DNA from: an uncultured bacterium
GTDB taxonomy: Bacteria; Cyanobacteriota; Vampirovibrionia; Gastranaerophilales; Gastranaerophilaceae
Reading direction: 5' to 3'
Assembly (NCBI GenBank): GCA_903868125.1
Contig: CAIPUE010000035.1
Span: 1-52,415, forward strand
DNA: 52,415 bases
Of the stretch, positions 47,804 through 50,222 are shown piece by piece. Every line of letters starts with the position of its first letter. Position 1 is the first letter of the stretch. A model generated the notes under the pieces. The model saw only the letters and a program-made list of their open reading frames with translations, was not told the origin of the DNA and searched no databases. A program made the translations under genes and the position numbers.

Positions 47804-48037
47804 AATACAATCTGTGTCGATGTGGCAAGGACTCCGCTTTTTTGCTTAAGTATCAAAAAAGAAGGAGGTTAGATAGAATATCTAACTCCGACACTCGCCC
47901 AACAAAAAAATTGAAAACTGAATACAATCTGTGTCGATGTGGCAAGGACTCCGCTTTTTCGATTAAGTATCAAAAAAGAAGGAGGTTAGATAGAATATCT
48001 AACTCCGACACTCACCCAACAAAAAAATTGAAAACTG
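47804..48037 (+). repeat. Two 117-bp tandem units copying the 5' end of tRNA-Leu
   Basis: Units at 47804-47920 and 47921-48037 differ at only a few positions; a third start at 48038 continues as the real tRNA-Leu. Each unit contains AATACAATCTGT followed by GTCGATGTGGC, the first 11 bases of the tRNA. An unrelated hairpin-rich insert then takes over (CTCC-g-CTTTTTTG with CAAAAAAG-aa-GGAG, and GGAG-g-TTAGATA with TATCTAACTCC). GTGTCG at the start can pair with CGACAC near the end. The short ORFs within are not believable genes. Confidence 0.85.
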
Positions 48038-48049
48038 AATACAATCTGT

Positions 48050-48130
48050 GTCGATGTGGCGGAATGGTAGACGTGCACGCTTGAGGTGCGTGTGGAGCAA
48101 TCTGTGGGGGTTCAAGTCCCCCCATCGACA
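48050..48130 (+). tRNA. tRNA-Leu (anticodon GAG)
   Basis: 81-nt class II tRNA: acceptor GTCGATG/CATCGAC, anticodon stem CACGC/GCGTG around TTGAGGT (anticodon GAG), a variable arm, and T-arm GGGGG-TTCAAGT-CCCCC. Discriminator A; CCA not encoded; a T6 run follows directly. Its 5' end is duplicated twice upstream and its 3' end once downstream. Confidence 0.95.
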
Positions 48131-48443
48131 TTTTTTGTTAATCTTCAAAAATCAAGACAGGGACTTAAACCCCAAGTTGTGCTATTCGCACAACGGCGGT
48201 GGTCTTTTTAAAAGACATCCTGCTCCGTAAGGTTCGAGGTTCACCCTCTCACCAATGGCGCAAGCCAAGTCCCCCATCGACATACTTTTCTGTAGAAAAA
48301 GTATGCAAAAAGACTTTAGACATACTCTCTTATTCACTAAAGTAAAACAGATTTATGTAATAAATTTAAAATTTAGACATTAACCCTAATGTTGTACGAG
48401 TAGCACAACGGCGGAGTTGTTACATTTGACATTTTTCGTTATT
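48131..48443. other. Gap after tRNA-Leu with a tRNA 3'-end copy and paired palindromes
   Basis: No gene is visible in 313 bases. CAAGTCCCCCATCGACAT (48266-48283) repeats the last 18-19 bases of tRNA-Leu with one base missing. GTTGTGC/GCACAAC followed by GGCGG (48176-48199) recurs in diverged form at 48391-48414. CATACTTTTC/GAAAAAGTATG (48281-48305) forms a hairpin. The layout suggests the scar of an excised or decayed element that used the tRNA as its target. Confidence 0.5.
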
Positions 48444-50030: not shown

Positions 50031-50058
50031 AAACAAAAACCGACTTTTTTGAAGTCGG
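50031..50058 (-). terminator. Intrinsic terminator of the candidate small RNA
   Basis: CCGACTT (50040-50046) and AAGTCGG (50052-50058) form a perfect 7-bp stem; on the minus strand it is followed by TTTTTGTTTG. It stands just upstream of the trmB promoter. Confidence 0.75.
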
Positions 50059-50137
50059 CCAAAAACCACGTATTAGAAGAGAGGAATTAGAGAGAGTGAG
50101 CCATAAAATAACTCACATGTACTCTGTACCACTTTTT
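50031..50137 (-). ncRNA. Candidate ~105-nt small RNA between trmB and nanE
   Basis: An orphan transcription unit: promoter TTGAAA (50172-50167), 17 bases, TATAAA (50149-50144), and about 105 nt later an intrinsic terminator. Within it are GTAC-AGA-GTAC, a second hairpin GTGAGTT/GGCTCAC (50116-50096) whose two imperfect positions become G-U pairs only on the minus strand, and a C/U-rich single-stranded stretch (50095-50075) resembling an anti-Shine-Dalgarno. No convincing ORF. It could also be a leader for trmB, but trmB has its own promoter beyond the terminator. No Rfam family recognised. Confidence 0.5.
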
Positions 50138-50143
50138 TTAAGT

Positions 50144-50172
50144 TTTATAACTTTTATTTTTTATTTTTTCAA
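50144..50172 (-). promoter_or_regulatory. Promoter of the candidate small RNA
   Basis: On the minus strand TTGAAA and TATAAA are separated by exactly 17 bases. Five of six bases match consensus in each box. The sequence is AT-rich, so a chance match is possible, but it is well placed relative to the terminator. Confidence 0.5.
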
Positions 50173-50222
50173 ATTTTGTTACAAATAGTAATATAAAAAC
50201 TTTTTTGAGATATAATCAAAAA

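Follow-up and report, generated by a model that had tools for sequence, protein, structure and literature searches.

A stretch of 52,415 nt (the window), one contig of the 1.89-Mb genome of an uncultured member of the Gastranaerophilaceae, carries the local copy of what is, judged by comparison of genomes, an order-wide and normally single-copy family of small RNAs (sRNAs). We consider it probable that this RNA of about 100 nt is a trans-acting regulator controlled by RpaB, which pairs with mRNAs via a UCCU core. The architecture, the covariation, the non-coding core, the changing neighbours and the promoter repeat come from comparison, while expression, RpaB binding and target pairing we infer. 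The Gastranaerophilales (Melainabacteria) are non-photosynthetic relatives of cyanobacteria from animal guts and other environments, and little seems to be known about their RNA regulation.

Parts and structure of the RNA

The first-pass annotation, made from the letters of the window, had proposed a minus-strand promoter (TTGAAA and TATAAA) and a terminator, with a 7-bp hairpin that includes G-U pairs and a C/U-rich stretch between them, and all of these were confirmed in place (Table 1). The spacer between the two promoter hexamers is exactly 17 nt, and two of the seven pairs of hairpin 1 are G-U solely when the minus strand is the one transcribed. The terminator hairpin and its T-run were also called independently by a terminator scanner (50060-50038, 9 pairs), a signal that is weak alone, with one terminator found against 0.5 ± 0.8 expected. 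The predicted fold of the 110-nt minus-strand RNA has an energy of -26 kcal/mol and a z-score of -2.9. The plus strand does just as well on this score (-3.6), and since both strands beat shuffles, folding energy cannot choose between them. The choice of the minus strand follows instead from the stems, which are compensated on that strand, and from the core word, which recurs without a mismatch in other genera, whereas its reversal, used as a control, gives no match. Within the single window, the signals for an sRNA gene are at most suggestive.

Table 1. Features of the sRNA locus, with positions counted from the first letter of the window
Feature	Position	Strand	Remarks
sRNA gene	~50134 to 50031	-	~100 nt; extent estimated from sequence
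HLR1-like direct repeat TATTAC-TATT-TGTAAC	50178..50193	-	putative RpaB site; 11/12 matches to TGTWAM-N4-TGTWAM
-35-like TTGAAA	50167..50172	-	genus-specific, conservation lacking
-10 region GTTATAAA, conserved	50144..50151	-	TATAAA at 50149-50144
Expected transcription start	~50137-50132	-	predicted
5' element GUGG.A.., RNA start	50121..50132	-	GUGGUAC in the window copy; GUGGAAU/GGGGAAU in most relatives
Hairpin 1 GUGAGUU...GGCUCAC	50096..50116	-	arms 50116-50110 and 50102-50096; compensatory changes
C/U-rich core CUCUCUAAUUCCUCUCUUCUAAUACGUGG	50066..50094	-	near-invariant order-wide; putative seed UCCU
Intrinsic terminator GGCCGACUU-CAAAA-AAGUCGGUU and U-tract	50031..50060	-	covarying stem

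Comparison with relatives revealed that hairpin 1 and the terminator stem are preserved through compensatory changes, the loss of which had been named beforehand as the result that would speak against an RNA. In the model-aligned set (n = 11), 8 of 14 pairs have changed on both sides, a value reached by none of 500 shuffles, and the covariation is lost when the partners are slid by 1-3 columns. This alignment was fitted to the model and is hence biased toward the structure; the covariation of the hairpin (5 of 8 pairs) is also seen on a plain MAFFT alignment. Each of the 42 predicted transcripts inspected closes with a terminator hairpin and has 8-9 T among its final 9 nt; the RNA measures 97-149 nt (median 109).

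The emphasis that had been laid on the C/U-rich stretch was well placed, for the core is the most conserved piece of the RNA, with about 25 nt invariant across genera. The window has the form UCUAAUUCCUCUCUUCUAAUACGUGG, the second main form across members is UCUCUCUAAUUCCUCUCUCUAAUAUGUGGUAAA, and in the members read CUAAUUCCUCU is followed by the C/U tract and UAAUAYG, from which genus g41 and genome G013 show minor variants. The length of the C/U tract differs by 1, 3, 4 or 5 nt among members, which argues against a reading frame. Many members outside the Gastranaerophilaceae have an extra GCAAUCUUCCUUCAAUCCUUC upstream of the core. We also observed in other families (loci L223-L225, L227-L229 and L231-L237) a conserved GCAAUCUUCCUU(C)A-AUCCUUC block before the core, made up of further UUCCU-type units, and in genus g10 (L219-L221) a terminator-bearing stretch, CUCUCUCUCUCUUAAUAUCCUCGUG, that is conserved there and may be a diverged form of the sRNA.

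The core cannot be taken as freely exposed, as predicted folds pair part of it with the 5' end. GUGGAAU at the 5' end is able to pair with AUUCCUC of the core in most members, recurrently across the predictions, and in many members of subfamily 2 the predicted fold engages part of the core in this way (mean unpaired probability 0.57, minimum 0.26). This pairing, which is weakened in members with GUGGUAC or GUGGCAU, may partly mask the core; since the core is invariant, compensatory change cannot demonstrate it.

Distribution and gene neighbourhood

Among 146 family genomes, a search with TAATTCCTCTCTTCTAATACGTGG at up to 3 mismatches gave a single match in each of 11, and a reversed control pattern gave none. 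Across the genomes of 84,980 species the core pattern is restricted to the group apart from one gammaproteobacterial match (L090), which lies in coding sequence and was dismissed as chance; 11 matches in viral contigs, likewise discarded, all represent the same unrelated coding/RBS segment of a phage, where the looser variant CUUUUC occurs. A first covariance model, built from 11 sequences and run on 142 family genomes, matched 45 of them exactly once each. On inspection 44 stand, including the match in G013, which is a true variant, while that in G116 (L161) was rejected for having no core. A second model built from 41 sequences was run on 22 genomes of five other Gastranaerophilales families and detected the RNA in 17 (E 1e-12 to 6e-21), whereas no strong match emerged from other orders of the class. 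Weak matches with E from 1e-6 to 1e-2, among them those in genera g10, g14, g7 and g8, were left out of the counts. There is usually one strong copy per genome. The relatives' contigs are labelled Candidatus Gastranaerophilales or uncultured bacteria and stem from rumen, horse, goat, sheep and other environments. About 60 family sequences have been read, and a covariance model is ready.

No Rfam family matches the element at gathering or permissive thresholds, the hits elsewhere in the scan being tRNAs and an L10 leader, and searches of the open literature for sRNAs of Gastranaerophilales or Melainabacteria returned no description of this RNA, nor of any other sRNA from these bacteria. On these sequence comparisons it is a new, previously undescribed RNA family. 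The original proposal of an undescribed, standalone minus-strand gene that has a promoter and a terminator of its own is supported.

The neighbouring genes differ among genera and are unrelated in most, and among 43 carriers the next downstream gene shares the strand of the sRNA in 23 and is opposite to it in 20. Both observations argue for a standalone RNA, neither a leader of trmB nor part of an amino-sugar regulon. A role in such a trmB/nanE regulon had been suggested from the position of the gene and did not survive the comparison: nanE adjoins the sRNA solely in the window's genus and in genus g12, and trmB in few genera and in either orientation. The gene is thus standalone, has its own promoter and terminator and is independent of its neighbours, as is expected of a trans-acting sRNA. 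In genus g25 a weak TrmB match with several stops (G086:C1:15259-15576) is found some 900 nt away from the sRNA and may be the remnant of a trmB that decayed at the ancestral locus. Elsewhere in the window, two 117-nt direct repeats that are 97% identical (47804-48037) end just before tRNA-Leu(GAG) (48049-48131) and are a tandem duplication beside a tRNA gene.

The promoter repeat and RpaB

The promoter first described has the exact hexamers and spacing, and its -10 is conserved among members as GTTATAAA or variants such as GTTTAAAA. TTGAAA is confined to the window's genus, since among 32 promoters no other reaches 5 of 6 matches to it, and the second conserved part is one that the first-pass annotation did not mention, a direct repeat further upstream. 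Of 42 homologous promoters, 40 match this 16-bp repeat, TGTWAM-N4-TGTWAM, at 11 or more of its 12 defined positions; the set includes many close relatives, so that the counts are not independent, and spans more than 15 genera. Shuffled promoters attain this level in 1.8 cases on average (maximum 5), and the spacer of 4 found in 40 promoters compares with 0-5 promoters for each of the other spacers between 1 and 9. The distance from the start of the repeat to the 5' element is either 50-53 or 61-62 nt, values that differ by roughly one turn of the helix; the transcription start site is an estimate, and in subfamily 2 the repeat extends to the -35 position. The window copy consists of one full half-site and one 5/6 half-site. 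The repeat is weaker in other families and genus g41, where 7 of 20 promoters have at least 11 of 12 matches (shuffles 0.9).

Read in reverse complement, TGTWAM-N4-TGTWAM equals HLR1 (KTTACAWW-N2-KTTACAWW), to which the cyanobacterial response regulator RpaB binds (PMC13421787, PMC9241938), and the 40 promoters contain two direct repeats of the (K)TTACAWW type 2 nt apart, with a period of 10. In cyanobacteria HLR1 activates when placed upstream, at about -45 to -66 (PMC13421787). The genome encodes three OmpR-type regulators, one of which passes the RpaB equivalog cut-off (NF045944, 362.8 bits, cut-off 330). This cut-off is passed by 32 of 34 genomes of the order, whether or not the sRNA was detected in them, and by 1 of 14 control genomes. 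The repeat of the sRNA promoter hence looks like a putative RpaB binding site, while another OmpR-type regulator could be the reader of HLR1-like repeats. The resemblance to HLR1/RpaB promoters of cyanobacteria comprises two TGTAAM-type direct repeats of period 10, upstream by the estimated start site, and an encoded RpaB equivalog; the differences are that half-sites here are also TGTTAA or TATTAA, that the site is putative and that there is no photosynthesis regulon to control.

The HLR1-like repeat offers an entry to what RpaB controls without a photosystem, and hence to a possible ancestral RpaB regulon; if the sRNA is indeed ancestral to the order and wired to RpaB, an RpaB-sRNA circuit predates, or stands apart from, the role of RpaB in light acclimation. 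In genus g24 (L025-L029) an HLR1-like repeat is also seen in the promoter of trmB (e.g. TGTAAAGGAATGTTAC), which suggests that trmB itself may belong to the RpaB regulon in that genus.

Proposed action and alternative readings

In the mechanism that we propose, the RpaB ortholog would bind the promoter repeat and, depending on the redox or stress state of the cell, switch the sRNA on or off. The UCCU-containing core, protected and presented by the two hairpins, would then pair in trans with A/G-rich stretches such as AGAGGA of several mRNAs, at ribosome-binding sites or early coding parts, and repress their translation; pairing of the 5' end may mask the core until a target competes. Three known systems offer parallels. 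PsrR1 of Synechocystis acts on photosystem and phycobilisome mRNAs, while the Gastranaerophilales are non-photosynthetic, and the PsrR1 sequence, compared via the full Rfam scan, gave no match. PsrR1 is a trans-acting sRNA of the RpaB regulon (PMC13421787). RoxS/RsaE-type sRNAs of Firmicutes, from another phylum and unrelated in sequence (no Rfam match), resemble the present RNA in their C-rich stretches, which pair with Shine-Dalgarno sequences, and in their control by a two-component system (PMC8216469). In Yfr1, an unpaired stretch containing UCCU lies between two hairpins (PMC2190773), and mutating UCCU in the conserved motif of Yfr1/Yfr10 abolishes target binding (PMC6778093). The analogy with Yfr1 and RoxS/RsaE makes pairing with several A/G-rich mRNA sites the most likely mode of action.

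The likeness to Yfr1 (RF01116) raises the question of whether the RNA is a diverged but true ortholog in a non-photosynthetic sister lineage. The order of parts is identical (5' stem-loop, unpaired C/U-rich stretch with UCCU, terminator hairpin), in keeping with the definition of Yfr1 as two stem-loops with an unpaired stretch between them (PMC2190773), even if the core is partly masked in some members. Both RNAs occur once per genome, lack a protein product and belong to one GTDB phylum, and by eye AUUCCUCUCUU agrees with ACUCCUCACAC at 7 of 11 positions. Yet the invariant 5'-ACUCCUCACAC-3' of the Yfr1 unpaired stretch is absent here, Yfr1 measures 54-69 nt against 97-149 nt, and its promoter is set apart from the one with the HLR1-like repeat. 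The models are also mutually blind: that of Yfr1 finds nothing in the window at E<=10 and nothing among the listed genomes of this family while matching 47 of 117 genomes of the phylum (43 over the gathering cut-off), and the new model finds nothing on eight Yfr1 loci at E<=10. Membership in Yfr1 was thus rejected on the 11-mer, the length and both directions of the model comparison; with an architecture simple enough to have arisen twice independently, we regard orthology as quite improbable. Still less credit goes to a small protein or dual-function RNA: the window copy has a 19-codon frame from GTG, but that frame is unconserved, the longest complete frame has a median length of 7 codons, and the core carries frame-breaking length changes. 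That the RNA is a leader or attenuator acting in cis on the gene downstream, in the window trmB, is what the locus might suggest at first sight, as trmB follows on the same strand here, in a genome of the same genus and in one other genus, the only one in which the element was seen upstream of trmB orthologs elsewhere in the family. As a general role this is refuted by the comparative data and has next to no probability: the downstream gene is opposite in 20 of 43 carriers, the sRNA is divergent from trmB in G023, trmB orthologs in most of the family are without it, and trmB in the window has its own -10/-35 behind the sRNA terminator.

A rival of more weight, if still unlikely, is that of a sponge, whose invariant core would bind and titrate an RNA-binding protein without any mRNA pairing. 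About 25 invariant nt are more than most pairing seeds require, the repeated UUCCU/AUCCUUC units upstream of the core in other families are what multi-site sponges would have, and the scan of ribosome-binding sites presented below yielded no conserved target. However, the known CsrA sponges present GGA motifs in loops, not CCU. The unpaired UCCU core between two hairpins is, moreover, the arrangement of the base-pairing Yfr1 (PMC2190773, PMC6778093).

For trans-acting pairing, the reading that we prefer, it is plausible by analogy that the core engages Shine-Dalgarno sequences. We give an even chance to the wider proposal that an RpaB-wired global sRNA, ancestral to the Gastranaerophilales in a lineage without photosynthesis, uses its C/U-rich seed as a general translational regulator. 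An extended complement of, or second match to, the 24-mer core does not occur in the family at up to 3 mismatches. Among 20 carriers, AGAGGAAUU before ATG is about three times commoner than its reversed control, as an SD-like word would be, and the scan for ribosome-binding-site targets in these genomes listed 49 genes with AGAGGAAUU shortly before ATG, none recurrent across genera except thrB, which recurs in two related genera. The ribosome-binding site of this gene (homoserine kinase) reads AGAGGAAUUAUG in both (L244, L288).
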